Shown here in pieces: positions 1 through 24,100 of a stretch of DNA of 64,000 nucleotides. A program made the position numbers and the translations under genes. Each line of letters begins with the position of its first letter. Position 1 is the stretch's first letter. Under the pieces are notes generated by a model. It was given only the letters and a program-made list of their open reading frames with translations, ran no database searches and was not told where the DNA came from. The stretch comes from Platerodrilus igneus (lineage: Eukaryota > Arthropoda > Insecta > Coleoptera > Lycidae), in assembly GCA_036346225.1 (NCBI GenBank), contig JARFIW010000115.1, forward strand, positions 1,824,501 to 1,888,500. The letters are read 5' to 3'.

Positions 1-2045
1 ATCAATTCGCTATGTTCTATTCTCAATGCGCTATAGTCAATGCTCAATGATCAATGCTTTATACGTACTTTGCATAATGTACAATGCGTAACGAGCAGTG
101 CGTAGACGTCAAGCGCAGTACGTAACGAGTAGTGTGTAAACGTCATGCGTAATACGTAAACCGTAATGCGGAATACGCGACACGAAACGTGAAATTCTCT
201 AAACAAAAAGAGCAATGCGTAGCACGTAATGTGCAATATGTAATGCTCAATGTACAATACGTAGTACCTGGTACGTAATTCACTCGGTGTAATTCGTAAT
301 ATGTAATACGCGTAAGATACGAAATACACAATGCGTAATGCGTGATACACGTGCATTCCGCATTACGCATTACGTATTCCGTACTAAACGTTACACTTTA
401 CGTTATGCGTTACGTGTTACATGATACGCGTTACGCGCTACGCATTATATATTACGCATTACGCATTGGACATTAGGCAATACGCATTGAGCATTACGAA
501 TCGTACATTGAGCATAAGACATTGCGTTATTGCGTATTGCACATTGCGCGAAGCTTATTGTCCATAATGCGTTAGTCCTATAGCATTACGTAATGTGGTT
601 TACGTATTGCGCTTTTCGCTCTACGCATTGCGAATTACGCGTTACGCGTTTCCGATTACGCTAAATGTAATACGCTCTACGCATAATGCGTTGGTCCTTG
701 CGTAATACGTACTACACATAACGTATTACGCATTACGCAACACGTATTTAGCATTGCATGCTACGCATTACGCATTCCTCGTAACTTATGTAGTATGCAT
801 TACTCATTATGAATTGTAAATTACGCATTATATATTATATGTTAGATATTACGCTTTACGCGAAACAAGTTACGTATTACGCATTATGCATCACGCATTT
901 TGCATTACGAATAGCATTCCACGCTTTGCGCGCATAACACATCACGAAATACTCAACACGAATCAGGCATTACGCATCATGCATCACACATAGTATATCA
1001 CGCATCACGCATCGCGCGGCGCGACTTGCGTATTACGCATTGCGCATTGCTTATTACGCATTATATGTTACGCATTACGCATACATATTGCGCATTGTGC
1101 GTTACACATTACGCATTACGGATTACCCATTTCGGATTACGCATTACGCATTACGCATTGCGCATTATGCAATACGCATTACGAATTGCGCATTACACTT
1201 ACATATTACGCGTTGCGCATTACGCATTATGTATTACGCATTGCGCATTATGTATTACGCATTACGCATTACGTAATGCGCATGGCGCATGACGCATTGC
1301 GTATTGCGTATTACGTATTGCGCATTACGCGTTGCGCACTACGCATTACGCATTATACATTACGCATTACGTATTACGCATTATGCGTTGCGCATTACGC
1401 ACTACGCATTAGCCATTACGCATTACACATTACGCATTGTGCATTTCTCGTTGCGTATTACGCATTACGCATAACGCATTACGCACTACGCATTACACAT
1501 ACCGCACTGCGCATTGTACATTGCATGTGCGCATTACGCATCACGCATTGTACATTGTTCACTGCGCATTCCACATTACGCATTACGCAATATGAATTAC
1601 GCATTACGTATTACGAATTATGTCTTGCGTTTTGCGCATTGTGTATGTTGAGTATTGCGCACAGTGCAATTCGCAGTACGGATTGCGCATTACGTAATAT
1701 GAATTACGCTGTGCGTATTACGAATTACGCATTGCGTTTTGCGCACTGCGTATGTTGCGTATTGCGCACAGTGCTATGCGCATTACGCATTGCGAATCGC
1801 GTGTAACGCACGTGTGAGTTACGCAATAGGCGATACGCAATACGCGTTACGAGTTATGCGTTACGAGTTACTTATTACGCATTACGGAATACGCATTATG
1901 CGTTACGCATTTCGCGTTACGCATTGCGCACTACGCGTTACGCGTTACGCATTACCCGTTATGCATTACGCATAACGCATTGCGCATTATGCATTGCGTA
2001 TTACGCAATGCGCGTTGTGCGTTGTGCGCTGAGCCTTGCGCGTTG
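1..2045. repeat. Degenerate 7-bp tandem array (TACGCAT)
   Basis: Nearly the whole stretch is built from TACGCAT with substitutions (TATGCAT, TACACAT, TGCGCAT). Seven bases times three frames gives pseudo-peptides of period 7 (RITHYAL), so the open frames here are not genes. From 1 to about 350 the unit is in the opposite orientation (ATGCGTA), switching near 350-360. Confidence 0.9.
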
Positions 2046-2900
2046 TGCTGTTTCTTGCGCTTCATGGTTGTTTTAGTAATTAACGATTAAACAATTTTTG
2101 TCTTTTTAATTAATTATGTACTCTGTCTAAGGGTGCAATTAATGTGTTTGCAACAATTGAGTAATGACTGCCATTGCATTCAATTAGTTGCACTAGTGCT
2201 AATGATACGTTTTAATTGGTTCCTTATAAATACATAAAACCTGTTGTTTAGAAGATAAATTTTAACAAAAAGTTTCTCATTTTATTAAACATCAAAAGAA
2301 AACAATCAACGTACAATAAATAAAACAAAACAAACCCGTAGTAGCTTTTTAAAATTTATATAACTTCTCATAGCTTTACAAAAAAATATTTCAAACTTAA
2401 AAAAATGACATAGTTTTTTATTTTTGTCAACATTAGTGGTTATTGGAAGATTGTGGCTCTTCCGGAGGAGTGACGTCATAGGGACCGTTGATGCGTGTCG
2501 TCATAACCAAGCACTTTGGGTGCGGTTATTTATCCTGTGGTACAAATATGATTTTTAAATCGGGCTCTACGATGCCAGAGAGTTAATAAATACAGGACCT
2601 GACCCCGCGATATTGATGTATGAGCTTTAAGTACAATGAGCTGTGTGGTGCGGTCACTGACGTCACAACCACGCCTCTTCAATATCCACTACATACTCTG
2701 ATACTACTTCTTCGTTTCCGTTGCGTAGCTTTTCTGTTTCTTTTTTAAACACAAAACCAAGGTCAAGCTGGAAATGAATCACTTGTCCCCAAAGTCGGGG
2801 TATGCTTTCTGCGATGGCTCCTTGCAAAGGCGTCGTATCAAAAATAAAATCGGCTTCAAGCAGGAACTGTGTGTTTATACTGACGTCACCACAAACTACG
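2046..2900 (-). promoter_or_regulatory. lmx1 3' flank/3' UTR with candidate poly(A) signals
   Basis: Non-repetitive AT-rich sequence downstream of the lmx1 stop. On the gene strand AATAAA occurs at 2417-2422 and 2281-2286, giving a plausible 3' UTR of roughly 500-640 bases. The palindromic octamer TGACGTCA occurs at 2471, 2658 and 2881, the last just past the stop codon. No other gene is evident; the plus-strand open frame at 2774-2977 is antisense to the last exon. Confidence 0.5.
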
Positions 2901-3118
2901 TTAATGTTCTAGAACAGGCGCTTCGGAACCGCAGAAGTAAGAAGTCTGCATCGAATACAGACGATCGATGGGATTGATATCCAAATGAACTCCGTGTGTC
3001 ATTATGTTTTTGTGTGCGGGGGGAGGCGTCATTATCATTGACAGGTGCGTTGAGTCCAAACTGCCGAAAGGAAAGCCGACGTATCCTGAGGTGAATTTGC
3101 CAGGACTCAAACTCAAGC
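2901..3118 (-). CDS. lmx1: lmx1 terminal exon with the conserved LMX1 tail
   Basis: A 218-bp terminal coding exon after acceptor TTATTTCGTAG, ending with TAA at 2901-2903. It encodes 71 residues, including [14 protein letters not shown], which matches the closing NPIDHLYSMQ.SYF of vertebrate LMX1. Here the protein continues about 14 residues past that motif (..[10 protein letters not shown]). The strong match at the far end of the gene shows that the split exons belong to one locus despite 46 kb of intervening repeat. Confidence 0.94.
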
Positions 3119-6100
3119 CTACGAAATAAAAGAAAGATTAGTGGTTAAAACTAAATAGTAAGTGTATTGTTGCGTGACGTGTCTGTCAGATACCCGCGAT
3201 CACGTAAGAAACGAACACGCAAACTTTTCGCAGGCGTAAGGAAGCCCCGTTGCACTGAAACATTGACCACAACCCCCTGTTATCGATGTATCCCCGTTAG
3301 CGGTTAAAAGTGATGTGTGTCAACGTGCGAAGAAACAGTAAGAAATTAGTTACCTGCGTGATGTAGCAACCTCGCAGAATCCTCCGGTTTAAAATAGTTC
3401 TCTTCACTATTAGACTCTTCCTTTATGTTCGCAAAAATGTTTCTGTCTCCTTTCAATTGAGAAAAAACATCGCTTTTCCCATTTTCAGAGTCGCTGCAGC
3501 TGTCGTTCATAAACGGTGTCGAACGTGGACCTGGAAACAAGTGATAGTTATAGTCTAGGTTAGAAAATCATTAGAATTAGAACGAAACGGTCGCGAAGTT
3601 CGTCGAAAGCACAGATTGAGAATGCGCGTTGCTAATATAATATGTTCGTGTAAATAATGCGTGGGGCGAGGGAACGGTTGGGGCGGTATGATATGTTACG
3701 ATAATCTACGTATGATACGCTTCCATACACTACGTTACGCTACGGTACGCTAAAGTGCGCTACGATACGCTAATCTGCGTATACAACTCTACGACGTGCT
3801 ACGATACGATACGATATGCTACAATACGCTACGATGTGCTACGATTCGCGACGATACGCTTCGATACGCTACTGCTACAATACGCTACGATACGGTACTA
3901 TGCGCTAATATACCCTACCATACGTAAAGATACGGTACAATTCGCTACAATATGTCACAATACGCTACGATACACCACGATACGATAAGCAACGATACCC
4001 TACAATTCGCTACGTAACGCTACGGTACGGTACAGTAAGTTACCGTAACCTGCGTATAACTACTGCTCTAAACTACAAAATTCGACACCCTACGTTAGTC
4101 TAAATCGCTCCGATACGCTACAATACGCTGCGATACGCTACGATTTGCTATGTTACGTTAAGATATGCTACGATACACTATGACACGCTACGACACGCTG
4201 CGATAAGCTATGATACGCTACGATACGCTACGGCATGCTAAGATGCTCCACAATGTGTTACGAAAGGTTACGATAGAATACGATGCGCTACGATGCGTTT
4301 CGATGCGCTACTATAAGATACGATACGCTACTACACTCTACGATACGCTACAACACGCTACGATACCCTATGATACGCTACAGTACGGCACGATAAGTTA
4401 CAATACGCTACAATAAGCTATGAAACGCCTTGATACACAACGATACGCTACGATGCGCTACTATACGTTATGATACGCTACGATATACTACGATACGCTA
4501 CGATACGCTACGATACGCTACGATACGCTACGATACGCTACAATACGCTACAATACGCTACAATACGCTACAATACGCTACAATACGCTACGAATACGCT
4601 ACAATACGCTACGATACGCTACGATACGCTTCGATACGCTACGATACACTGCGATACGCTGCGATACGCCACGATACGCTACGATACGCTACGATACGCT
4701 ACGATACGCTACGATACGCTACGATACGCTCCGATATGCAATGACACGCTACGAAAAGCTGCGATACGCTATGATACGCTACGATATGCTACAATACGCT
4801 ACGATACGCTACGATACGCTACGATACGCTACGATACGCTGCGATACGCTTCAATACGCTCCGATATGCTACGGTACGCTTCGATACGCTACGATACACT
4901 GCGATACGCCTTGATACACAACGATACGCTACGATGCGCTACTATACGTTATGATACGCTACGATATACTACGATACGCTACGATACGCTACAATACGCT
5001 ACGATACGCTACAATACGCTACGATACGCTACAATACGCAACAATACGCTACAATACGCTACAATACGCTACGATACGCTACGATACGCTTCGATACGCT
5101 ACGATACACTGCGATACGCTGCGATACGCCACGATACGCTACGATACGCTACGATACGCTACGATACGCTACGATACGCTACGATACGCTCCGATATGCC
5201 ATGACACGCTACGAAAAGCTGCGATACGCTATGATACGCTACGATATGCTACAATACGCTACGATACGCTACGATACGCTACGATACGCTGCGATACGCT
5301 TCAATACGCTCCGATATGCTACGGCACGCTACGATACGTTGCGATACGCTACGATACCCTACAATACGCTACGATTCGCTACGATACGCTACGATACGCT
5401 ACGATACGCTACGATACGCTACGATACGCTACTATACGCTACGATTCGCTACGATACGCTATGCTACGCTACGATATGCTACGATACGCTACGACGCGCT
5501 ACGATACGATACGATACGACACGCTACTACGCGCTACAACGCCCTACGATGCGCTACAATACGCTACGATTTGCTACGATGCACTAGAGTACGCTACGGC
5601 ACGCTATGGTACGGTAGGGTGCGCTACGACGCGCTCGGTGCGCTACGGCACTCTACGGTACGCTACGGCACGCTACGGTACGCTACGGCACGGTACAGTA
5701 CGCTACGGTACGCTAGGTACTCTACGGTACGCTTCAATACGCTACGGCACGCTGCGGCCCGCTACGGTACGCTACGGTACGTTATGATACGGTAATGTAC
5801 GCTATGATACGCTACGATATGCCACGTTACACCACGACACGCTACGGTACGATACGCTACAATACGCTACGATACGCTAAGAAACGCAAAGATACGCTAC
5901 GATACGCTACTATGCGCTACGATACGCTAAGATATGCTTCGATACTGTACATTGCGCTACTATACGCTACAATATGCTACGATGCGCTACAAAACGCTAC
6001 GGTACGTTATGATACGCTACGATATGCCACGTTACACCACGACACGCTACGGTACGATACGCTACGATACGCTACGATACGCTAAGAAACGCAAAGATAC

Positions 6101-9100
6101 GCTACGATACGCTACTATGCGCTACGATACGCTAAGATATGCTTCGATACTGTACTATGCGCTACTATACGCTACAATATGCTACGATGCGCTACAAAAC
6201 ACTACGGTACGCTACGGCACGCTACGGTACGCTACGGTAAACTATGGTACGCTGCGGTACCCTATAAAACGCTACGATACGCCAACATACGCCACGGTAC
6301 GCCACAATGCGCTACGACGCACTACGATACGCCACGATGTGCTACGGCGCACAACGATACGCTACGATAAGCTACGATACGCTACGATACGTTACGATAC
6401 GCTACGATACGCTACGATACGCTACGATACGCTACGATACGCTACGATACGCTATGATACGCTACGATACGCTACGATACGCTACGATACGCTACGATAC
6501 GGTACGATACGCTACGATACGCTTCTCTACGCAATGTTACGATACGCTAAAAAACGATATAATACGCTACGATATGCTACGATACGCTACGGTGATCTAC
6601 GATACGCTACGAGAAGCTGTGATACCTTATGATACGCTACGATACGCTAAGATACGCCATGATATGCTACGATACGTTTCTATACGCTGTAACACGTTAG
6701 AATACGCTACGATACGTTCGGTACGCTACGATTTGCTACTATACGCTACAATACGATACTCTGCGTTACGATACGTTACAATACGTTACGATACGTTAGG
6801 ATACGTTACGATACGTTTTGATACCTTACGATACGTTAGGATACGTTACCCTACATTTGGATACGTTACGATACGTTACGATACGTTACGATACGTTACG
6901 ATACGTTACGATACGTTACGATACGTTACGATACGTTACGATACGTTACGATACGTTACGATACGTTACGATACGTTACGATACGTTACGATACGTTACG
7001 ATACGTTACGATACGTTACGATACGTTACGATACGTTACGATACGTTACGATACGTTACGATACGTTACGATACGTTACGATACGTTACGATACGTTACG
7101 ATACGTTACGATACGTTACGATACGTTACGATACGTTACGATACGTTACGATACGTTACGATACGTTACGATACGTTACGATACGTTACGATACGTTACG
7201 ATACGTTACGATACGTTACGATACGTTACGATACGTTACGATACGTTACGATACGTTACGATACGTTACGATACGTTACGATACGTTACGATACGTTACG
7301 ATACGTTACGATACGTTACGATACGTTACGATACGTTACGATACGTTACGATACGTTACGATACGTTACGATACGTTACGATACGTTACGGTACGCTACG
7401 ATACGTTACGATACGCTACGATACGCTACGATACGCTACGATACGCTACGATACGCTACGATACGCTACGATACGCTACGATACGCTACGATACGCTACG
7501 ATACGCTACTATACGCTACGATACGCTACGATACGCGACGCTACAGTACGCTACGGTACGCTATGGCACGCTACGATAAGCAACGATACGTTACGATACG
7601 CTAGGATGCGCTACGATACGTTACGATACGCGACGATATGCTACTATGCTCTACTATACGCTACGATACGCTACAATACGCTACGATAAGCTGTGACACC
7701 CTGGACCACTGGCTCAAGGTTAACGGGTTTTTGGTGAAATAGTCAGTTAGGCTCAAGCTAGGGGAGTGTCCAACCTTGTTCCGTGTTCCGCTACTACAAC
7801 AGCATAGACCAACTTACTCAGTTCTTCTTCTTTAATCATCAATTTTTTCTCATCACTCTCAAAATCAATCCCTTTATCACCGGCCTTTTTCTTCATCTTC
7901 TTCATCTTTGCCCTTTGGTTTTGAAACCACACCTACAACCCAAAATTATATAAATTCTACGAGAACTCAAACGTACCTGGACGATCCTTATACTCAATCC
8001 TGTATCCTTTGCCAAGGCTTCTCGTACTTTCCGACAGGGCTTTGGGCTAACCTCAAATGACGCCTTAAACGCCCTTCGTTGTTGTGTTGTTAGAATAGTT
8101 CGTGGTCGCTTAGGCCCTCTACGTCCGTCTATCGAGCGGGTCGCTTGTATGATTTCGTCGCAAAAGTAGTCCACTGCAAAAAAGCTAAATTAGGATTGGT
8201 TTTAAAACGTGCAAAATCTCGCGGCAAGTCGGGTGCAAATGAGACGTATTTCGCGTGCAAACCCAATGTAGTACCTTCAGATGCGTCTACGTACATCGAT
8301 GTTTACTTTACGCGGCAAGGTTGCGTAGAGGTTTTATTAGTGCGCGAGTGGGTCTGAGTGACTCGTAAACCCTCTAGGTTTCATAACTTGATCACAGAGC
8401 GCGCGCCTTGTGGCTGTCAACTCGTCTAAACCTAAGAATCTACATACCATGCGGAATCCCCTGAAGCATCTCGACCTCCTTCTCATAATCAGGCTTACAG
8501 AACACCTGTCCTTGTTTGAAAACGTACTGGTCTCCTTTCTGCAGACGCATTCCACACACAACGCACGCGAAACAGCGTACGTGAAATACGTTCTCACACG
8601 TTCGCATCACAAGCTCTTCGGGCGATATACGCTCTGAACATCCAAGACACTTCTTTGCGTAAAGCCTGAAAGAAAGTATAACATTAATATTGCTTGCTGT
8701 ACGATGACGTGGATACGGTTTTCAGTATTTGTGTAAACTTTGCTCTTTTATTTGTTCGTTTTGTTCGTGCAGTGGGCTTTGGCGGGTCACGTGCGGCTTC
8801 TAGAGGGTGACAGTTGAATTAGAAATGGCAAGCGGTTGCTGTTTTTGTTACTAAATAAATATTTGACGCTGAAACGTTTGTCCGAAAATATCAATTCGTT
8901 TGATAGTGTAAGTGTGAACGCATCCTTTTAGTTTTAAGGTTAGGAAAGTTGAAGGTTATAGTCGCGAAGTGCGACACTCTTCTACAGTTTATTTTCCTAA
9001 GGAAATAGTCCTGAACGTAGTCAATTCTAACAAGCTTTTGAGAATTGGTTTCAGCTTCGTTCCAACAGGCAACAATTGTGGCTGATAGCCAGTTCTGTTA

Positions 9101-12100
9101 GCAAATTTGGTGGTGCTACTGTCAGTGACACAAAAATGGCTACACGTTACCGTCAGCTTTGTTCTAAATTCGTAAACGTTCACAAGCCTAGGCAACTAGT
9201 TACACTTACGTCCCAACAGGCAAAAGCACACTGTAGCCTCCTGAAAATGTTTCAACTTCATCCCAATATGGCAACAATTGTGGTTGAAGCCAATTCTCGT
9301 AGCACAGTTGGTTGTGCTGCTGTTAGTGACACAAGAATGGCTACACGTTATCGTCAGCTTTGTTCTAAATGCGTACACGTTCACAAACCTAGGCAACTAG
9401 TTGCACTTTCGTCCCAACAGTCAGAAGCACATAGTAGCCTCCTGTAAATGTTTCAACTTCATCCCAACAGGCAACAATTGTGTCCGATAGCCGGTTCTGG
9501 CAGTACATTTGGTTGTGCTGCTGTTAGAGGCACAGGAATGACTACACGTTATCGTCAGCTTTGTTTTCAATCCGTACACGCTTACAAGCCTAGGCAACTA
9601 GTTACACTTTCGTCCCAACAGGCAAAATCACTCTGTAGCCTCCTGTAAATGTTTCAACTTTATTCCAACAGGCAACAATTGTGCCTTATAGCCTGGCAGT
9701 ACATTTGGTTGTGCTGCTGTTAGAGACACAGGAATGACTACACGTTATCGTCAGCTTTGTTCTCAATTCGTAAACGTTCACAAGCCTAGGCAACTAGTTA
9801 CACTTTTGTCCCACCAGGCAAAATCACTCTGTAGCCTTTTGTAAATGTTTCAACTTCATCCCAACAGGCAACAATTGTGTCCGATAGCCGGTTCTGGCAG
9901 TACATTTGGTTGTGCTGCTGTTAGAGGCACAGGAATGACTACACGTTATCGTCAGCTTTGTTTTCAATTCGTACACGCTCACAAGCCTAGGCAACTAGTT
10001 ACACTTTCGTCCCAAAAGGCAAAATCACTCTGTAGCCTCCTGTAAATGTTTCAACTTCATCCCAACAGGCAACAATTGTGACTGATAGCCTGGCAGTACA
10101 TTTGGTTGTACTGCTGTTAGAGGCACAGGCATGACTATACGTTTTCGTCAGCTTTGTTCTCAATTCGTAAACGCTCACAAGCCTAGGCAACTAGTTACAC
10201 CTTCGTCCCAACAGGCAAAAGCACACTGTAGCCTCCTGAAAATGTTTCAACTTCATCCCAATATGGCAACAATTGTGGTTGAAGCCAATTCTCGTAGCAC
10301 AGTTGGTTGTGCTGCTCTTAGTGACACAAGAATGGCTACACGTTATCGTCAGCTTTGTTCTAAATTCGTAAACGTTCACAAGCCTAGGCAACTAAGTAGA
10401 CCATTTTCAGGGAACCCACCACCACATTTGCTCCAGAATCCCACATTTGCTCCCACATCTGGACCAATTTACATGTAAATTCCCATAAGGAGCAAATGAG
10501 GGAGATGAATCTTATCCTTGCTCCGCCCTGTGGACCGCCTTGTGGAATAATTTTTTACACCAACCATTTTGATTACATCACACCCGCATTCTTTCCACCC
10601 GCGAGATAAATCTTTCTCCACATTTCCACCCACGAGATAAACCTATCTTGTTTGGTATCAATTAATATTAGAATTTTCTTAGCTACCCGAATCTCTAGGA
10701 ATTTTTTAGATTGCAACATCCCCCAGGGAGCTACCCTCATTTTAAGATTTCTTACCTGTAGCGACTTTTGAGCGTTCTTATAAATTTTTTTATACATGCG
10801 ATACATTAAATTAGCTTCGAATTTTATGCACATCCCGAATCTGTAAACAGATTTGAAATCGGACCACGCCCTGCAAAGTTATACCCCTTTAAAGTCCTGA
10901 TCTTCTAATTTTGCTATTTGCTCTATAAGCAAACCTAACAAATAGTTTTCTTCGTCTAGCCATTGCATCTTTCGAGATAAACCTATCTTGTTTGGTATTA
11001 ATCAATATTAGAATTTTCTCAGCTACCCAAATCTCTAGGAATTTTTCAGATTGCACCATCCCCAAGGGAGCTACCCTAATTTTAAGATTTCTTACCTGTA
11101 GCGACTTTTGAGCGTTCTTATAAATTTTTTTATACATGCAATACATTAAATTAGCTTCGAATTTTATGCACATCCCGAATCTGTAAACAGATTTGAAATC
11201 GGACCACGCCCTGCAAAGTTATACCCCTTTAAAGTCCTGATCTTCTAATTTTGCTATTTGCTCTATAAGCAAACCTAACAAATAGTTTTCTTCGTCTAGC
11301 CATTGCATCTTTCGAGATAAACCTATCTTGTTTGGTATTAATCAATATTAGAATTTTCTCAGCTACCCAAATCTCTAGGAATTTTCAGATTGCACCATCC
11401 CCAAGGAGCTACCCTAATTTTAAGATTTCTTACCTGTAGCGACTTTTGAGCGTTCTTATAAATTTTTATACATGCAATACATTAAATTAGTCTACAATTT
11501 TACGCACAACCCGAATCTGCAAACAGATTTGAAATCGGACCACGCCCTGCAAAGTTACACATATACCCTCTGCGAGATAAATCTTTCTCCACATTTCCAC
11601 CCACGAGATAAACCTACCTTGTTTGGTATCAATCAATATTAGAATTTTCTAAGCTATCCAAATCTCTTTAAATTTTTCACATAGCACCATCCCCAGAGAG
11701 CTACCCCATTTTAAGATTTCTTACCTGTAGCGACTTTTGAGCGTTCTTATAAATTTTTATACATGTAGCACATCTTGTTAGTCTAGAATTTTATGCACAA
11801 TCCGAATCTCTAAATAGATTTAAAATCGAACGACCCTTACCATTTTACACACACCTTTAAATTATAAATTTCCTGCGGCTTATACATAAAAGAAAATCTA
11901 AAACCATTCTTAAAACTTTTATTACAAACAATTTTTACTAATACAGTTTAAATTTTTAAAACCACATTTCTAAATACATATTTACAATTTTTATTTTCAA
12001 CCTAGAACTTGTCATATCGGGTCATACTTATTAATATTTATTTCTAAATAGAGCACTTTTTCCAAAGACCAACCGGACTCGCATGTTTCAAATTCCTCTG

Positions 12101-15100
12101 ATTTTGTTCGCATGGTTTCGCTTAAGACCTCGTACGTATTTTCCAGATTACTAGAAGACGTTATAACCACATTTTTGTGTTAAAGGATTTCACATCGGAC
12201 TTCTCTTCCCCATTTTGGTGTAAACGCCGTAGAGTTCGCAATAGACTTTTACTGCTGTATGTTGTATTCTTTTTCATTTATTAATCGAATAAATCGCTCT
12301 TTCTGCTTCCAAAGAAACTCGGACACTCCATCGTCGACGCTGGCGTTATTTATGCGATAGCTAGCCATACGGTTGTTAAACGCAGTGCTAACCATTTCTA
12401 CACCATCGTCGCTAGTAGCGGTAACTGATACATTTTATGTCTGTTGCTCCTTAAATGTGCGGCATACGTAGTTTTTTCCATCTCGAAATCGCATACTTTA
12501 CACATAATTCGTGGTTGTTTCGTACAAGGTCCTTTAACAGCTGGCGGAGCTGAACGTTTACGGCTTAATGACATACCATGCTGTTTTTCCTTGTGTCGCT
12601 GTAAGTATCCATTCTCGTAAAAGCGAAACCGCAAGTCCCACAGTTTAAGTACTTTGCTGCGGGCGGATGTATAAGCTTAACCTTGGACGATGTTGCACCA
12701 CGACATTTGTTCTGATGCCGTTTGAGAGCATCCCTCCTGGTAAAGTAGACGTCACAGGGCTCGCATTTAAAAACGTTTGCAGGTACCATTTTAGTACAAA
12801 ACAAAATCCACACTATAAGACTTGACTTGTAAGCGAACTAACTTATAACTAAAGAGTTTACTCGCGTACCTGCTTTATGTACCCTATAGAATGCAAACCG
12901 AAGGTTTCCGAAGACACCGAACGAAGTCTCGGATTTAGCGAGGAACCAAATGACGTCATAATCCTCGCAGCTCGTCCAATACATTTAGCACCAATGTATG
13001 CGCCCGGTTCGCTTTGTCCATGCTGCGAATGCCGTTAGTAAAACATCGGAAACGTCTTCCATGTTATACGGATCGCGTGCATATTAAAATCAAAGGGTGG
13101 TAGCACACACACACAAATTGTGTGCAAGTCGTGCTGTAGAAGATGCAGTGCTACTATAACCAAAAACACTTTAAACCATTACTAAGAAAATACCAACTTG
13201 TTGTCTACAGGATACTTACAACAATTTAATTTTAAATAACTTCTACGTCATACTTTAGGAAATGATAGGCTTGAATATTTTTCAAATGAATCACCAAGCG
13301 AAAGTATATGCTTAGCACTATTAAAATTACCCATTAATTTCCCATTTTTACGACTGTGGTTAATTATAGATTAAAATTTAATTTGTGCACGTTCGAGCTT
13401 CTCGTAAACTAACATATTTTATAGCAACAATGCGCTGTATAATACATGCATACCCCTTCGCCGCGCTACTGCTATTCTTGTAGTTGCTAGAAAAGTCACT
13501 CTCCTTTTACTGTTAGGACCGATGCAAAGCACCAATTTTTTATACTTTCTATAGCACATCGCGCGCTTTTTCGTATGATAATTAAATTTGCTTCTGTAGG
13601 CTTTTACACTTTCGCATAGCGGTCAATCGCACGTAATGATTTCTAGAACCGGTAAGTACTCGATATCGCCCAATAGAGAATTAGATGCTCGATGTCTGTC
13701 AATTTCCGATTCCCTCGTAAAGGTAGGAAAACCCAGTCAATAATCCATTATACTTCAACCCGCTCCTGTTCTGATAATTTACAAACATTTTTCGAACGAC
13801 AATGGGCCGAGAATTTTTAAACCTCCGAGGGATCTTTAAGTCGTGATCAATTACACATCCGAGCTACGCGTAAACTAACATATTTTGCAGCAACTGTATA
13901 ATACATGCATACCCCTTCTCTGCGCTACTGCTATTCTTGTAGTTGCTTGGAAAAGTCAGTCGCCCTTTTTACTGCTAGGGCCGCTAAAAAGCACCATTCC
14001 ATACTTTATTTATAAGTGTAGCACATCGCGCACTTTTTTGTCGGTTAATTAAATTTTTGTTTATGTAGGCCTTTACACTTTCGCTTATTTAAACATCTAA
14101 TACGATCGATTAACCACTTTCGATTATTCTAACGGGGAACCACCATACATCCCACCGCACCGTTCTTTTTGAATCCAACGATCCTATGGGCTTCCGCACA
14201 CTAACACCTAACGTATCTTTCCTACTAGTTGTTAAACAAAAACTACCGGTATCGCCATTGTGGATATAAGCAGATGTTTGTGGATGTGTACGAGAATATG
14301 TAACCATATACATTAATTAGTCTAAGCTATTTTATTTAGTCCAAGAAAATTATTATTTTTCTAATCCACAACTAATAATCGTCTTTATAGGTTTAACATT
14401 TCTACCATTTCCCAATGACTGGTGCTACGTACATGTAAACTTTAATTTCTTATTAGAGAGAATTCTTATTATCCCACGCACTGCTGCGTAGTTGCATGCC
14501 CACCCCTTTTGGGAATATATGCTCGTTATAGGTTGTAGCACCCGCGGTTTTACTTAACTACACTTCGTGAGACCCTTTAATCTTTTAATCGTATCTTTCT
14601 CGCTTACAATACACTCGGACTTAGCCCTACTACCAACAAATTCTAATACTAGACCCCCATTAAATTCGTCTTTAAATTTCCCTACAAGTTTTTATCGACA
14701 AGTGTTATATTGTATTTATTATACGCGGGGTAGTCACTCTTTTAAGATAAATATATTTTGCTAGGTATCAACTAATATTAAATTTTTCTAGGGACCCCAA
14801 ATCTGTAAATAGATTTTAAATAGGACCACCCCATACAAAGTTATGCCTTTTAAAGACTAATTTTTACCCATCTTTATTTAACCCCATCTTTAAAACCCTT
14901 TTTTTCGCTAACCGAGACATATGCTTTAACTAACCATTCCCCTAGAAATCTAAAACCGCAGTGTCCCGCGAATACTACGTGGAGGTAACACGTATACTCT
15001 GTCAACCAGGATAGAAGCAGGAAAGATTTGGAAGGTGGGCGAAGAACTTAAAAATTATGGAATTTAAAAACTAATATATACAATAGATTTACAAAATCTA

Positions 15101-18100
15101 TACAACTATCTTAGATCTATATCTTTACGTCCCCATGCGTAGATTGTTGTACTATTAGGAATGATATACCTTTTGTCATCTTCGCTCGATAAACTAATTT
15201 TATTAATTATCTGCGTGTACAAATCGTGTTTTTACTCCGGATACATACACCGGCAAGTACTCCACACCAAATAAAGAATTAGATGCTTGGTAACTGTTAA
15301 CTTCCGCATCCCTCGTGTACGCCTAAGCACGCCTGTGCACATGCACACCCCTGCGCGTGCGCACCCCTGCCCATGCGCGCTGCCCATGCGCACCCCTCTC
15401 TGTGCGACTGCTATTTCGTGGTAACGTCACAGCCTTTTATTAATAAAGAACAATGTTATATACTATTATAAAATGTTTATTCTGACATTATACATAACAA
15501 ATTTAAAAAACAACTAATGCCAAGCATGGACCCATTTAAACTTAATTTTAATACAAAGTTATACACAGAAGACAGTCCTTTCTTTATGTTTGTTTGCGGT
15601 GGTTTTAATTTTATCTAATTTTATTCGCAGCTTAAAATTTAAATCGACACCCAAGTCTTCTATCTCCTTTTCTAGCCAATAGTTTGATACATAAAGACCG
15701 TCTAGGTTTTCGAATTGTAAAATGTACCGAAGTTTGCCTCTATATTTAAAGTCTTTGATTCCGCCGACAACCAGATCCATTCCTTCGTGTAATTCTTGCA
15801 GCTTGTGACAATCTTTTAATCGCAGTTTTCCCACTATATCCTGCATACGTATCTTGTTAGCTTGATCGACTTCTTCTTGTCGGTATTGGAGGAAATCCTT
15901 TTTCTCCCACACACTGTTGCGTAGTTGCATGTCCACCACTTTTGGGAATATATGGTTGTTATAGGTTGTAAGACCCTCGGTTTTAAATGATCCGAAAGGT
16001 TCTTTACTGGGCAAATATACAATGTTTAGCGGAACCCCTTTACGTGTGGTGTACGCCAAGGTTACGAAACCCGCATTCCTTAGTTCTTCTTTGTTATCTG
16101 CCATTTTGATAAATACGTTTTTAGAATAACCTTTAAAAGTATACGGATTTAGTACCATCCTTTTCCGCAAGAACGCCTACATAACTAAAAGAGTCTTTCT
16201 TACTAACCGCAAATGCAAACAGCTTGTAGAACCCGGATGTATTTAAGTCACTCCATCGGCACATAAAATAATCTTTAATTCTTCCCCATTTTCTCTAATA
16301 AGATGTTCTTTGTATAACACATCTTTGTATTGTTCGCGTATTGTCGCAGTGTTTTCCATGTACTCCAATTTTCGTCTTTTGCATCCATTTCCTCTAATTC
16401 CAGTTGTCTTTTCCTTCCACTTACAGCGTATGGTATGCATAATGGAGCAATTTCCTTTAGCGTAAACGGATAAAGTTTACTACCAATATTTACGCGTTGT
16501 CGTACAACCTCTGGACGAATGTTATGCGTATCTATCAACCCCAATTCCGAAATGATTATTTCTTTTGGAATTGTAGAATATGGTGTTGCAGATTGTGTAA
16601 AATATGTACTGCCTGCTTTAATGTAGCACTTGTGTAAGATTTTTATTTTATCTGAGCTGTCTTCCTCCTCTACTATCTCCAAATAATTTACGGGTAAATA
16701 GTTAAAACTAAAAGCCGAAAGCACATACTTTATCAATTTTTCCCTTTCTTTTGGTTTTTCGGACAACTTAATTTGCAAGCCCGTCAATTTCTTTGTATTA
16801 CCATTCCCCCAATACACGTACTGTAGCAGGTTATTAAACACTAAACAGCAGCTATTTTGTAGCTTGTCCGATAGCTTACTCCACATTTTGGCAAGTGGTA
16901 CCGAGTACATTGGCGCCTTTAGGAAGTATAACTTACTATCTTCCAATAACTTTAAACAGTCTTTTAAGGGATTATACACCCGTCCCGCACTGACATAGGT
17001 TAGGTCAGGGCGAATACGAAGAAAAGTGTAATATTATAGTTGACAACGATAAAACTGTAGGAATTGATTGTTTAACATGGCTAACAACCAATGCAAGAAT
17101 TAAGATATACAACAAATTTGTGTGTCAGATAACAAGTCCTGGTGTTAATAAACAACTTGGCAATCATATACTAGATTTTTTACGTTGTCCAGATGTGCGT
17201 TTTAAGGGAAACATTTGCGTCTACTTTGGCTAAAGAATATGGTATTACGCGATTGGAAGCGACAATATACAACTGTGCAATTGGAAGCTATGTCAGTGCG
17301 GGACGGGTGTATAATCCCTTAAAAGACTGTTTAAAGTTATTGGAAGATAGTAAGTTATACTTCCTAAAGGCGCCAATGTACTCGGTACCACTTGCCAAAA
17401 TGTGGAGTAAGCTATCGGACAAGCTACAAAATAGCTGCTGTTTAGTGTTTAATAACCTGCTACAGTACGTGTATTGGGGGAATGGTAATACAAAGAAATT
17501 GACGGGCTTGCAAATTAAGTTGTCCGAAAAACCAAAAGAAAGGGAAAAATTGATAAAGTATGTGCTTTCGGCTTTTAGTTTTAACTATTTACCCGTAAAT
17601 TATTTGGAGATAGTAGAGGAGGAAGACAGCTCAGATAAAATAAAAATCTTACACAAGTGCTACATTAAAGCAGGCAGTACATATTTTACACAATCTGCAA
17701 CACCATATTCTACAATTCCAAAAGAAATAATCATTTCGGAATTGGGGTTGATAGATACGCATAACATTCGTCCAGAGGTTGTACGACAACGCGTAAATAT
17801 TGGTAGTAAACTTTATCCGTTTACGCTAAAGGAAATTGCTCCATTATGCATACCATACGCTGTAAGTGGAAGGAAAAGACAACTGGAATTAGAGGAAATG
17901 GATGCAAAAGACGAAAATTGAGTACATGGAAAACACTGCGACAATACGCGAACAATACAAAGATGTGTTATACAAAGAACATCTTATTAGAGAAAATGGG
18001 AAGAATTAAAAGATTATTTTATGTGCCGATGGAGTGACTTAAATACATCCGGGTTCTACAAGCTGTTTGCATTTGCGGTTAGTAAGAAAGACTCTTTAGT

Positions 18101-21100
18101 TATGTAGGCGTTCTTGCGGAAAAGGATGGTACTAAATCCGTATACTTTTAAAAGGTTATTCTAAAACGTATTTATCAAAATGGCAGATAACAAAGAAGAA
18201 CTAAGGAATGCGGGTTTCGTAACCTTGGCGTACACCACACGTAAAGGGGTTCCGCTAAACATTGTATATTTGCCCAGTAAAGAACCTTTCGGATCATTTA
18301 AAACCGAGGGTCTTACAACCTATAACAACCATATATTCCCAAAAGTGGTGGACATGCAACTACGCAACAGTGTGTGGAGAAAAGGATTTCTCCAATACCG
18401 ACAAGAAGAAGTCGATCAAGCTAACAAGATACGTATGCAGGATATAGTGGAAAACTGCGATTAAAAGATTGTCACAAGCTGCAAGAATTACACGAAGGAA
18501 TGGATCTGGTTGTCGGCGGAATCAAAGACTTTAAATATAGAGGCAAACTTCGGTACATTTTACAATTCGAAAACCTAGACGGTCTTTATGTATCAAACTA
18601 TTGGCTAGAAAAGGAGATAGAAGACTTGGGTGTCGATTTAAATTTTAAGCTGCGAATAAAATTAGATAAAATTAAAACCACCGCAAACAAACATAAAGAA
18701 AGGACTGTCTTCTGTGTATAACTTTGTATTAAAATTAAGTTTAAATGGGTCCATGCTTGGCATTAGTTGTTTTTAAATTTGTTATGTATAATGTCAGAAT
18801 AAACATTTTATAATAGTATATAACATTGTTCTTTATTATAAAAGGCTGTGACGTTACCACGAAATAGCAGTCGCACAGAGAGGGTGCGCATGGGCAGCGC
18901 GCATGGGCAGGGTGCGCACGCGCAGGGTGTGCATGTGCACAGGCGTGCTTAGGCGTACACGAGGGATGCGGAAGTTAACAGTTACCAAGCATCTAATTCT
19001 TTATTTGGTGTGGAGTACTTGCCGGTGTATGTATCCGGAGTAAAAACACGATTTGTACACGCAGATAATTAATAAAATTAGTTTATCGAGCGAAGATGAC
19101 AAAAGGTATATCATTCCTAATAGTACAACAATCTACGCATGGTGACGTAAAGATATAGATCTAAGATAGTTGTATAGATTTTGTAAATCTATTGTATATA
19201 TTAGTTTTTAAATTCCATAATTTTTAAGTTCTTCGCCCACCTTCCAAATCTTTCCTGCTTCTATCCTGGTTGACAGAGTATACGTGTTACCTCCACGTAG
19301 TATTCGCGGGACACTGCGGTTTTAGATTTCTAGGGGAATGGTTAGTTAAAGCATATGTCTCGGTTAGCGAAAAAAAGGGTTTTAAAGATGGGGTTAAATA
19401 AAGATGGGTAAAAATTAGTCTTTAAAAGGCATAACTTTGTATGGGTGGTCCTATTTAAAATCTATTTACAGATTTGGGGTCCCTAGAAAAATTTAATATT
19501 AGTTGATACCTAGCAAAATATATTTATCTTAAAAGAGTGACTACCCCGCGTATAATAAATACAATATAACACTTGTCGATAAAAACTTGTAGGGAAATTT
19601 AAAGACGAATTTAATGGGGGTCTAGTATTAGAATTTGTTGGTAGTAGGGCTAAGTCCGAGTGTATTGTAAGCGAGAAAGATACGATTAAAAAGATTAAAG
19701 GGGTCTCACGAAGTGTAGTTAAGTAAAACCGCGGGTGCTACAACCTATAACGAGCATATATTCCCAAAAGGGGTGGGCATGCAACTACGCAGCAGTGCGT
19801 GGGATAATAAGAATTCTCTCTAATAAGAAATTAAAGTTTACATGTACGTAGCACCAGTCATTGGGAAATGGTAGAAATGTTAAACCTATAAAGACGATTA
19901 TTAGTTGTGGATTAGAAAAATAATAATTTTCTTGGACTAAATAAAATAGCTTAGACTAATTAATGTATATGGTTACATATTCTCGTACACATCCACAAAC
20001 ATCTGCTTATATCCACAATGGCGATACCGGTAGTTTTGTTTAACAACTAGTAGGAAAGATACGTTAGGTGTTAGTGTGCGGAAGCCCATAGGATCGTTGG
20101 ATTCAAAAGAACGGTGCGGTGGGATGTATGGTGGTTCCCGTTAGAATAATCGAAAGTGGTTAATCGATCGTATTAGATGTTTAAATAAGCGAAAGTGTAA
20201 AGGCCTCACATAAACAAAAATTTAATTAACCGACAAAAAGTGCGCGATGTGCAACACTTATAAATAAAGTATGGAATGGTGCTTTTAGCGGCCCTAGCAG
20301 TAAAAGGGCGACTGACTTTTCCAAGCAACTACAAGAATAGCAGTAGCGCAGAGAAGGGGTATGCATGTATTATACAGTTGCTGCAAAATATGTTAGTTTA
20401 CGCGTAGCTCGGATGTGTAATTGATCACGACTTAAAGATCCTCGGAGGTTTAAAAATTCTCGGCCCATTGTCGTTCGAAAATGTTTGTAAATTATCAGAA
20501 CAGGAGCGGGTTGAAGTATAATGGATTATTGACTGGGTTTTTCCTACCTTTACGAGGGAATCGGAAATTGACAGACATCGAGCATCTAATTTCTATTGGA
20601 GCGATATCGAGTACTTACCGGTTCTAGAAATCATTACGTGCGATTGACCGCTATGCGAAAGTGTAAAAGCCTACAGAAGCAAATTTAATTATCATACGAA
20701 AAAGCGCGCGATGTGCTATAGAAAGTATAAAAAATTGGTGCTTTGCATCGGTCCTAACAGTAAAAAGGAGAGTGACTTTTTCTAGCAACTACAAGAATAG
20801 CAGTAGCGCGGCGAAGGGGTATGCATGTATTATACAGCGCATTGTTGCTATAAAATATGTTAGTTTACGAGAAGCTCGAACGTGCACAAATTAAATTTTA
20901 ATCTATAATTAACCACAGTCGTAAAATGGAAATTAATGGGTAATTTTAATAGTGCTACATATACTTTCGCTTGGTGATTCATTTGAAAATATTCAAGCCT
21001 ATCATTTCCTAAAGTATGACGTAGAAGTTATTTAAAATTAAATTGTTGTAAGTATCCTGTAGACAACAAGTTGGTATTTTCTTAGTAATGGTTTAAAGTG

Positions 21101-24100
21101 TTTTTGGTTATATTAGCACTGCATCTTCTACAGCACGACTTGCACACAATTTGTGTGTGTGTGCTACCACCCTTTTGGATTTTTAATATGCACGCGATCC
21201 GTATAACATGGAAGACGTTTCCGATGTTTTTACTAACGGCATTCGCAGCATGGACAAAGCGAACCGGCGCATACATTGGTGCTAAATGTATTGGACGAGC
21301 TGCGAGGATTATGACGTCATTTAGTTCTCGCTAAATCCGAGACTTCGTTCGGTGTCTTCGAAACCTTCGGTTTGCATTCTATAGGGTACATAAAGCAGGT
21401 ACGCGAGAGTAAACTCTTTAGTTATGTTAGTTCGCTTACAAGTCAAGTCTTATAGTGTGGATTTTGTTTTGTACTAAAATGGTACCTGCAAACGTTTTTA
21501 AATGCGAGCCCTGTGACGTCTACTTTACCAGGAGGATGCTCTCAAACGGCATCAGAACAAATGTCGTGGTGCAACATCGTCCAGGTTGCTTATACATCCG
21601 CCCGCAGCAAAGTACTTAAACTGTGGGACTTGCGGTTTCGCTTTTACGAGAATGGATAGCTTACAGCGACACAAGGAAAACAGCATGGTATGTCATTAAG
21701 CCGTAAACGTTCAGCTCCGCCAGCTGTTAAAGGACCTTGTACGAAACAACCACGAATTATGTGTAAAGTATGCGATTTCGAGATGGAAAAACTACGTATG
21801 CCGCACATTTAAGGAGCAACAGACATAAAATGTATCAGTTACCGCTACTAGCGACGATGGTGTAGAAATGGTTAGCACTGCGTTTAACAACCGTATGGCT
21901 AGCTATCGCATAAATAACGCCAGCGTCGACGATGGAGTGTCCGAGTTTCTTTGGAAGCAGAAAGAGCGATTTATTCGATTAATAAATGAAAAAGAATACA
22001 ACATACAGCAGTAAAAGTCTATTGCGAACTCTACGGCGTTTACACCAAAATGGGGAAGAGAAGTCCGATGTGAAATCCTTTAACACAAAAATGTGGTTAT
22101 AACGTCTTCTAGTAATCTGGAAAATACGTACGAGGTCTTAAGCGAAACCATGCGAACAAAATCAGAGGAATTTGAAACATGCGAGTCCGGTTGGTCTTTG
22201 GAAAAAGTGCTCTATTTAGAAATAAATATTAATAAGTATGACCCGATATGACAAGTTCTAGGTTGAAAATAAAAATTGTAAATATGTATTTAGAAATGTG
22301 GTTTTAAAAATTTAAACTGTATTAGTAAAATTGTTTGTAATAAAAAGTTTTAAGAATGGTTTTAGATTTTCTTTTATGTATAAGCCGCAGGAAATTTATA
22401 ATTTAAAGGGTGTGTGTAAAATGGTAAGGGTCGTTCGATTTTAAATCTATTTAGAGATTCGGATTGTGCATAAAATTCTAGACTAACAAGATGTGCTACA
22501 TGTATAAAAATTTATAAGAACGCTCAAAAGTCGCTACAGGTAAGAAATCTTAAAATGGGGTAGCTCTCTGGGGATGGTGCTATGTGAAAATTTAAAGAGA
22601 TTTGGATAGCTTAGAAAATTCTAATATTGATTGATACCAAACAAGGTAGGTTTATCTCGTGGGTGGAAATGTGGAGAAAGATTTATCTCGCAGAGGGTAT
22701 ATGTGTAACTTTGCAGGGCGTGGTCCGATTTCAAATCTGTTTGCAGATTCGGGTTGTGCGTAAAATTGTAGACTAATTTAATGTATTGCATGTATAAAAA
22801 AATTTATAAGAACGCTCAAAAGTCGCTACAGGTAAGAAATCTTAAAATTAGGTAGCTCCTTGGGGATGGTGCAATCTGAAAAATTCCTAGAGATTTGGGT
22901 AGCTGAGAAAATTCTAATATTGATTAATACCAAACAAGATAGGTTTATCTCGAAAGATGCAATGGCTAGACGAAGAAAACTATTTGTTAGGTTTGCTTAT
23001 AGAGCAAATAGCAAAATTAGAAGATCAGGACTTTAAAGGGGTATAACTTTGCAGGGCGTGGTCCGATTTCAAATCTGTTTACAGATTCGGGATGTGCATA
23101 AAATTCGAAGCTAATTTAATGTATTGCATGTATAAAAAAATTTATAAGAACGCTCAAAAGTCGCTACAGGTAAGAAATCTTAAAATGAGGGTAGCTCCCT
23201 GGGGGATGATGCAATCTAAAAAATTCCTAGAGATTCGGGTAGCTAAGAAAATTCTAATATTAATTGATACCAAACAAGATAGGTTTATCTCGTGGGTGGA
23301 AATGTGGAGAAAGATTTATCTCGCGGGTGGAAAGAATGCGAGTGTGATATAATCAAAATGGTTGGTGTAAAAAATTCCACAAGGCGGTCCACAGGGCGGA
23401 GCAAGGATAAGATTCATCTCCCTCATTTGCTCCTTATGGGAATTTACATGTAAATTGGTCCAGATGTGGGAGCAAATGTGGGATTCTGGAGCAAATGTGG
23501 TGGTGGGTTCCCTGAAAATGGTCTACTCAACTAGTTACACTTACGTCCCAACAGGCAAAAGCACACTGTAGCCTCCTGTAAATGTTTCAACTTCATCTCA
23601 ACAGACAACAATTGTGGCTGATAGCCAATTCTCGTAGCACAGTTGGTTGTGCTGCTGTTAGTGACACAAGAATGGTTACACGTTATCGTCAGCTTTGTTC
23701 TAAATGCGTACACGTTCACAAACCTAGGCAACTAGTTGCACTTTCGTCCCAACAGTCAGAAGCACATAGTAGCCTCCTGTAAATGTTTCAACTTCATCCC
23801 AACAGGCAACAATTGTGTCCGATAGCCGGTTTTGGCAGTACATTTGGTTGTGCTGCTGTTAGAGGCACAGGAATGACTACATGTTATCGTCAGCTTTGTT
23901 TTCAAGGCTCACAAGCCTAGGCAACTAGTTACACTTTCGTCCCAAAAGGCAAAAGCACATAGTAGCCTCCTGTAAATGTTTCAACTTCATCCCAACAGGC
24001 AACAATTGTGCCTGATAGCCAGTTCTGGTAGTACATTTGGTTGTGCTGCTATTAGTGACACAAAAATGGCTACACGTTATCGTTAGCCTTGTTCTAAATT

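Follow-up and report, generated by a model that had tools for sequence, protein, structure and literature searches.

The stretch of DNA analysed here (64,000 nucleotides of contig JARFIW010000115.1 of the lycid beetle Platerodrilus igneus, assembly GCA_036346225.1, positions 1,824,501 to 1,888,500; hereafter, the window) contains, at 10395-23527, an element made up almost entirely of two inverted arms: a left arm of 6,607 bp on the forward strand (10395-17001), starting AGTAGACCATTTTCAGGG, and a right arm of 6,243 bp (17285-23527), which is the left arm inverted onto the reverse strand and ends CCCTGAAAATGGTCTACT. A first-pass annotation of the window had described a near-complete palindrome at this position, with arms of ~6.2-6.6 kb round a 289-bp loop. 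Self-BLAST and an alignment of the arms confirm both the palindrome and the arm lengths, although the loop (17002-17284) measures 283 bp. Self-BLAST resolves an inner arm pair (10973-17001 versus inverted 23292-17285; 6,050 columns, 98.7% identity) and an outer arm pair (10395-11224 and 23527-22703; 98.1% identity); in 20 mononucleotide-shuffled versions, the longest inverted match spans 29 columns. The alignment of the arms covers 6,228 positions and contains 42 substitutions and 46 insertions or deletions (indels), the identity by substitutions alone being 99.3%. The sole indel of at least 4 bp is one of 336 bp, equivalent to one extra subrepeat in the left arm: ~340-bp subterminal tandem repeats, detected by Tandem Repeats Finder, occupy 10633-11557 (forward strand; 2.7 units), and the right arm has one unit fewer.

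The hexanucleotide CAACTA abuts the element on both sides (10389-10394 and 23528-23533), and the flanking 201-bp satellite contains seven exact occurrences of the corresponding unbroken site, GGCAACTAGTTAC, and two more that have a single mismatch, against a chance expectation of 0.1. Both the flanking duplication and the empty site in nearby copies of the satellite had been noted at first pass, and together they support the view put forward there that the palindrome integrated as one unit.

Each arm carries the remnants of two genes, here called P1 and P2. Searches by tblastn with intact P2 place its remnants at 12015-12789 in the left arm (reverse strand), where C2H2 zinc fingers and a polymerase N-terminal, terminal-protein-like region can be made out, and at 21479-22248 in the right arm (forward strand); both are frameshifted. 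Those of P1, located by tblastn and by comparison with homologues, lie at 15562-17000 in the left arm (reverse strand; codons ~315-794, frameshifted and without a start) and at 17006-18718 on the right side (forward strand; codons ~222-794, with frameshifts and an open reading frame (ORF) at 17175-17921), the latter starting within the loop. A comparison of centres indicates that the loop lacks the central hairpin tip and both of the P1 starts present in other copies. With these features lost and frameshifts present, the window copy must be considered dead; it belongs to a large mobile family, within which it is a degenerate copy with its centre deleted. Sequence searches of the window ORFs against Pfam, PHROG and the PDB, together with Rfam and tRNA searches, gave zinc fingers as the sole identity.

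The first-pass annotation had proposed looking for further copies with these ends, and such copies are plentiful. A search of the 2.71-Gb assembly with the first 306 bp of the element gave 4,287 first-look candidates (this figure, like the first-look figures of 28,906 and 25,855 from this work, counts candidates and not copies), of which 40 were scored and match the query at 94-100% identity. Just over half of these (21 of 40) form inverted pairs in 10 loci, including the window, with the facing ends 5.3 to 22 kb apart. Both ends were read for 12 copies, namely, the window element, the nine other paired loci, C624 and C1016, and all 12 have AGTAG...CTACT ends and a 6-bp duplication, which abuts the element directly in 11 cases and lies three extra bases away in the other (C565, GCCCCG). 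The remaining duplications are AATCTG (C998), TATATG (C780a and C1566), GTGGTC (C1628), TTGGAG (C780b), TATATT (C672), AATAAT (C1154), CACACC (C1646), CTCTAG (C1016) and TATGTG (the outer element of C624). Two of these copies, C1154 (5.3 kb) and C672 (5.7 kb), are small because of deletions and have retained their inverted ends. An assembly artefact or a local inverted segmental duplication would be in keeping with the fact that palindromes are a known failure of assemblers, and with the tandem duplication of the left flank and left arm, with an identical 20-bp flank, seen in both C998 (L009-L010) and C672 (L024-L025). However, the twelve loci have different flanks and each has its own 6-bp duplication, and the arms differ by substitutions and indels, which renders this explanation very improbable.

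The ends are of the kind borne by Polintons, also known as Mavericks, as had been recognized at first pass from the AG..CT termini and the 6-bp duplication. Vertebrate Mavericks are described as having 6-bp duplications and the end motifs (AGT)2//(ACT)2 or (AG)3//(CT)3 (PMC8097293). In a comparison of four end sequences, one of them from a true Polinton, the common part is confined to the first 5 bases, AGTAG.

The most symmetric copy, C1016, consists of two ~7.5-kb arms (7,482 alignment columns, 98.9% identity). Its inner inverted pair leaves 114 bp unpaired, and its apparent loop is mostly an insertion with CAGTACTGAAA ends (C1016:1768447-1769730; L051 from 9248 into L052 to 1030), which we take to be mariner-like; the palindromic element is itself inserted in an ORF that is presumably LINE-like. 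In this copy, each strand has a P1 that reads away from the centre, with P2 farther out on both. Similarly, C933 has two back-to-back P1 genes, the matches to which are 312 bp apart; in the piece that was read, one P1 has its start and the other is present from near codon 16. Five further copies (C998, C1628, C780a, C1566 and C565) each retain one near-full-length P1, with lesions, the opposite P1 being cut at a copy-specific place. The centres of C1566, C565, C780a, C1628 and C1646 extend past the region shared with C1016 into a GC-rich dyad, which C1016 itself does not have. At the dyad, there is a perfect stem with a 4-base tip in both C780a (21 bp, z -11.7) and C1566 (19 bp, z -10.0); folding is weak in C1646 (z -1.6) and C565 (z -0.1), and C1628 retains only one side. 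Adjoining the dyad is an array of short palindromes that folds better than shuffles in all of five sequences tried (z -4.0 to -9.3). We read the dyad as the true centre of the element, with the one-sided deletions beginning just beyond it.

Gene P2, of which there is one per arm, encodes ~260 amino acids (aa) comprising C2H2 fingers and a conserved region. The genome yielded 140 scored copies at 84-100% identity, 106 of which have no stops, and P2 matches are present in the window element and in 19 of 20 pieces from 10 other palindromic copies. Residues 3-276 of 276 align at 43% identity (E 1.8e-68) with the N-terminal part of a family B DNA polymerase (PolB) of a Polinton in the same genome (C90). 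The C90 frame stays open as far as the piece extends, and at its edge begins a DNA_pol_B_2 match that has an open frame of 1,361 aa. P2 ends ahead of a Cys-motif stretch in the C90 polymerase, which we take to be a vOTU domain. The N-terminal domain of Polinton polymerases is described as a terminal protein, followed by vOTU (PMC11071308). Eight homologues of P2 were found in the protein database (28-50% identity), and, among the six inspected, several continue past the point at which P2 ends; a scan of IMG/VR found no relatives. By these alignments, P2 is a separate-gene version of the terminal-protein region at the N-terminus of the local Polinton polymerase. Each arm, therefore, holds the remnant of part of a Polinton core gene, contrary to the first-pass statement that none was present.

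Gene P1 encodes ~795 aa; 62 genomic copies were scored, at 54-56% identity to a homologue from elsewhere, and 24 of these have no stop. The protein is conserved in Hemiptera, with named homologues in Planococcus citri, Cacopsylla melanoneura, Laodelphax striatellus, Aphis glycines and Cinara cedri. Two of those in Planococcus citri (P0013 and P0014) have the consecutive gene numbers LOC135836843/44, and this pair may perhaps represent the two arms of one palindrome; in Aphis glycines (P0026), a P1 fragment is joined in one predicted protein to a PF13843 protein, presumably a piggyBac-type transposase domain. The dN/dS ratio is 0.36 for one P1 pair, and the median for P2 is 0.33 (11 copies picked as intact give 55 pairs, of which the 53 with a dS above 0.02 were used), which suggests that both genes are under purifying selection.

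In searches with P1, Pfam gave no match above chance, the PF02486 (Rep_trans) profile gave none at E<=10 in 24 members scanned singly (although HMMER filters may lose weak matches), PHROG scans of 21 homologues returned only weak and scattered matches, and IMG/VR scans with two pieces of P1 found no relatives. AlphaFold2 models were made for a 720-aa homologue (pLDDT 78.0) and a 336-aa homologue (pLDDT 76.5). When these were compared with 350,542 PDB chains using Foldseek, the top match was a Rep_trans structure for both models (4cij, E 0.011, and 4cwc, E 0.024), neither being significant alone; against viral models, the sole match under 0.001 was to an uncharacterized phage protein (1.7e-4). 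With VIA-align, the longer model scores 6.4, 6.0 and 5.9 against 4cij, 4cwc and 4cwe, respectively, below TBPs at 7.7 and 6.9, and the shorter model scores 5.4 against 4cij, amid PR-10 and TBP folds at 5-6; the Rep_trans fold has been compared to TBP in papers on Rep proteins (PMC4797284 and PMC13107129).

At the level of individual residues, a K-x-Y-x-K motif containing a putative catalytic tyrosine is found in 23 of 30 P1 sequences, the other seven of which begin after it, stop before it or diverge there. It is preceded in 23 sequences by D/N-x-D/N-x-T-x-D. Of 20 sequences that reach the next motif, 18 have RLE and the others LLE and QLE; in the 18 that span both, the RLE (LLE in one) lies 47 residues beyond K-x-Y-x-K. 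The residues described for Rep_trans are a catalytic tyrosine with lysine at +2 and a basic residue at -2, and R-x-E after the tyrosine (PMC4797284). P1 resembles Rep_trans proteins (PF02486; RepD, RepSTK1 and the archaeal Rep-Arvir) in K-x-Y-x-K and in the hairpin-rich DNA beside the gene, and may do so in the order of K-x-Y-x-K, D-x-D and R-x-E, the last two being metal-site motifs in Rep_trans, and in the TBP-like fold among its weak matches. It differs in being eukaryotic, in its length, in a long insert between the tyrosine and RLE, in its extra C-terminal domains and in matching no profile, and its motif spacing is unlike that of RepD. The alternative is that P1 has a TBP-like or helix-grip fold but is some other protein, either structural or DNA-binding: none of the PDB fold matches reaches significance, the scores of PR-10, phosphoglucomutase and TBP domains are similar to those of the Rep proteins, and we see no evident counterpart of the T-x-Y-x-G described for Rep_trans. 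Set against this are the first rank of Rep_trans structures in both Foldseek searches and the conserved tyrosine motif with RLE beyond it, in the order reported for Rep_trans (PMC4797284). On balance, P1 is probably Rep_trans-like, and that it is not a nickase of this type seems to us somewhat unlikely.

The remaining Polinton genes were sought in 11 palindromic copies, represented by the window element and the 20 pieces of the 10 others. In these, all eight Polinton ORF queries went unmatched, among them the C624 integrase (tblastn, E<=1e-3), capsid, ATPase and phospholipase. Nor was anything matched at E<=1 by the 339 residues that follow the P2 region in one genomic PolB, the queries not extending to the polymerase core. 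The palindromic copies share with Polintons the 6-bp duplication and AG/AGT-type terminal inverted repeats in all 12 cases read, and in the 11 tested we found no rve integrase, no complete protein-primed PolB, and neither capsid nor packaging ATPase.

The first-pass annotation had proposed a search for a full-length relative with the same ends and an integrase or transposase, but none with an integrase was found among the 12 copies. The one candidate, C624, was rejected as an autonomous relative, being two nested elements with separate duplications: the outer palindromic element (TATGTG) and, in its right arm, a separate 16.7-kb Polinton with AGTAGGG.. ends of its own and the duplication GTAGAA. 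The latter encodes an integrase (rve, E 8e-13), a Pox_A32-type ATPase, a phospholipase A2-like protein and a double-jelly-roll capsid; no PolB reading frame was noticed alongside the integrase, ATPase and capsid frames, and one PolB query was unmatched. A P1 fragment lies in an insertion of ~1.8 kb within the right terminal repeat of this nested Polinton (L050:2384-3414; C624:9190884-9191914). Its integrase has 150 scored relatives in the genome, itself included, at 93-100% identity, and DNA_pol_B_2 matches occur at 115 genomic places, with open frames of up to 1,361 aa. Polintons with integrase, capsid and later polymerase parts are common in the same genome, so that helpers exist there. A test of proximity between hit lists has little power, since even the Polinton polymerase and integrase hits do not meet in it (91 of the 150 integrase rows were used, and 87 places for the 115 polymerase rows).

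How the two arms of each copy came to be alike can be addressed by comparing arms across copies. In the inner region (13250-15320), own arms differ by 0.1-1.1% in six of eight copies, versus 2-8% between subfamilies; C565 (6.4%) and C780b (7.4%) are exceptions, each with one deviant arm, and in the outer region (11840-13240), the right arm of C998 is near other copies and its left arms are 1.2-1.5% away. We also counted, for quartets of arms, the sites uniting a copy's own arms versus the two other pairings. Between subfamilies, own arms are united by 133:0, 92:0, 61:0, 50:4 and 50:0 in the inner region and by 33:0, 28:0 and 3:0 in the outer. The arms have, thus, been evened out over longer times, for which hairpin copying or gene conversion would both suffice.

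Copies related as sisters weigh on the other side. Window/C1566 and C565/window each group left arm with left arm by 4:0 in the inner region (the latter favours own arms by 2:1 in the outer), and C1628/C780b does so by 2:0 in the outer region (with 3:0 for own arms in the inner). Three outer quartets contain no informative sites. Since sister copies inherit arm-specific differences, palindromes can move as they stand, and the quartets do not support a remaking of the arms at every cycle. These quartets tell against our preferred reading, set out below, which we hold with lower confidence on their account.

They are what would be expected if the element were simply a non-autonomous Polinton whose terminal repeats are very long. 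It would be cut or copied as double-stranded DNA, be integrated by Polinton integrase and move as it is, its arms being matched over long times by chromosomal gene conversion and P1 and P2 being passengers or ordinary helpers. Such an element would have the Polinton-like ends and 6-bp duplication seen here, and inverted repeats are known to undergo gene conversion. However, the many intact P1 and P2 frames and dN/dS ratios near 0.33 argue against passengers, and conversion alone leaves the GC-rich central hairpin unexplained. Moreover, the terminal inverted repeats given for vertebrate Mavericks end at 1,447 bp (PMC8097293), as against ~7.5 kb here. We consider this explanation rather unlikely.

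A further alternative, which we judge improbable, is that the palindromes resemble defective interfering genomes, formed anew by snap-back copying of one end of a longer, unseen, linear Polinton-like parent with P1 and P2 on a single arm. The agreement of own arms across subfamilies would follow, as would the common tip side and the break beyond the centre, the place of which varies among copies, and palindromic defective genomes are known for protein-primed viruses such as adenovirus, although none surfaced in a literature search. On the other hand, none of the 12 loci with both ends read is a one-armed parent, neither integrase nor further polymerase sequence was found in the 11 copies tested, and sister copies with shared arm differences must have moved as ready palindromes.

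We favour, at roughly even confidence, a non-autonomous, Polinton-dependent satellite, the whole genome of which is an inverted duplication able to replicate via a hairpin form. The ends and 6-bp duplication point to a Polinton integrase, which would join the AGTAG ends to the target, and P2 points to protein-primed starts: acting as terminal protein, it would allow a Polinton polymerase supplied in trans to begin copying at the ends. The displaced strand, being self-complementary, could then fold into a hairpin, and copying round its tip would rebuild both arms from one. Such rebuilding would have to be frequent enough to account for the likeness of arms within subfamilies, yet some moves would have to take place without it, given the few arm-specific differences that sister copies have in common. 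Finally, a nick at the dyad is suggested by P1 together with the hairpin-rich centre, which P1, as a Rep_trans-like nickase, may open or resolve next to its own start. The first-pass suggestion of a giant fold-back element mobilized in trans holds as regards shape, and trans mobilization is the likeliest reading, although the second replication-type gene had been overlooked.

In summary of its affinities, the element is like a Polinton/Maverick (adintovirus-like) in its AGTAG.. ends and 6-bp duplication, in having the N-terminal domain of the polymerase (P2) and in its host genome, and unlike one in that nearly all of it is inverted repeat, in the integrase, capsid, ATPase and further polymerase not found in the 11 copies and in carrying P1, which we did not recognize as a Polinton gene. 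Foldback (FB/TU) transposons are also mostly inverted repeat, with arms of simple repeats and a longer target duplication; by this general description, the present element resembles them in the extent of its inverted repeat and differs in having conserved genes in both arms and Polinton-type ends. The proposed copying round a hairpin tip recalls the palindromic defective genomes of adenoviruses and the hairpin replication of parvoviruses, unlike which the element is integrated, multi-copy and transposon-like. As it falls outside Polintons for want of an integrase, full polymerase and capsid among the copies tested, and outside PF02486 by profile, yet probably works with the former and like the latter, we class it as a Polinton satellite.

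To our knowledge, no Polinton satellite of this kind is known in animals. A search of the literature outside subscription papers and Repbase likewise found no comparable animal Polinton satellite, no palindromic Polinton derivatives and no description of a eukaryotic Rep_trans. Only tentatively do we propose a new kind of eukaryotic mobile element, namely, a hairpin-genome Polinton satellite with a stand-alone terminal protein and the first eukaryotic Rep_trans-like initiator, replicating through a hairpin that has a GC-rich tip at the dyad and integrated as a 15-kb palindrome by a Polinton integrase. Polintons are regarded as a root of several groups of eukaryotic DNA viruses; if the proposal is true, a satellite with its terminal protein split from the polymerase would reveal how fused terminal proteins gave way to stand-alone ones, such as those of adenoviruses. 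Moreover, a Rep_trans-like enzyme in animals would bring eukaryotes into the range of a family that was described in 2026 as apparently confined to bacteria, with a first relative in archaea (PMC13107129). The proposal would also bear on the chromosomal spread of a near-perfect 15-kb palindrome.

The remainder of the window (1-10394 and 23528-64000) is largely satellite DNA of several unrelated kinds, with unit sizes of 7, 10, 201, 123/366, 99/238, ~355, ~335, 30/325 and 172/321 bp, and these surroundings are perhaps pericentromeric.

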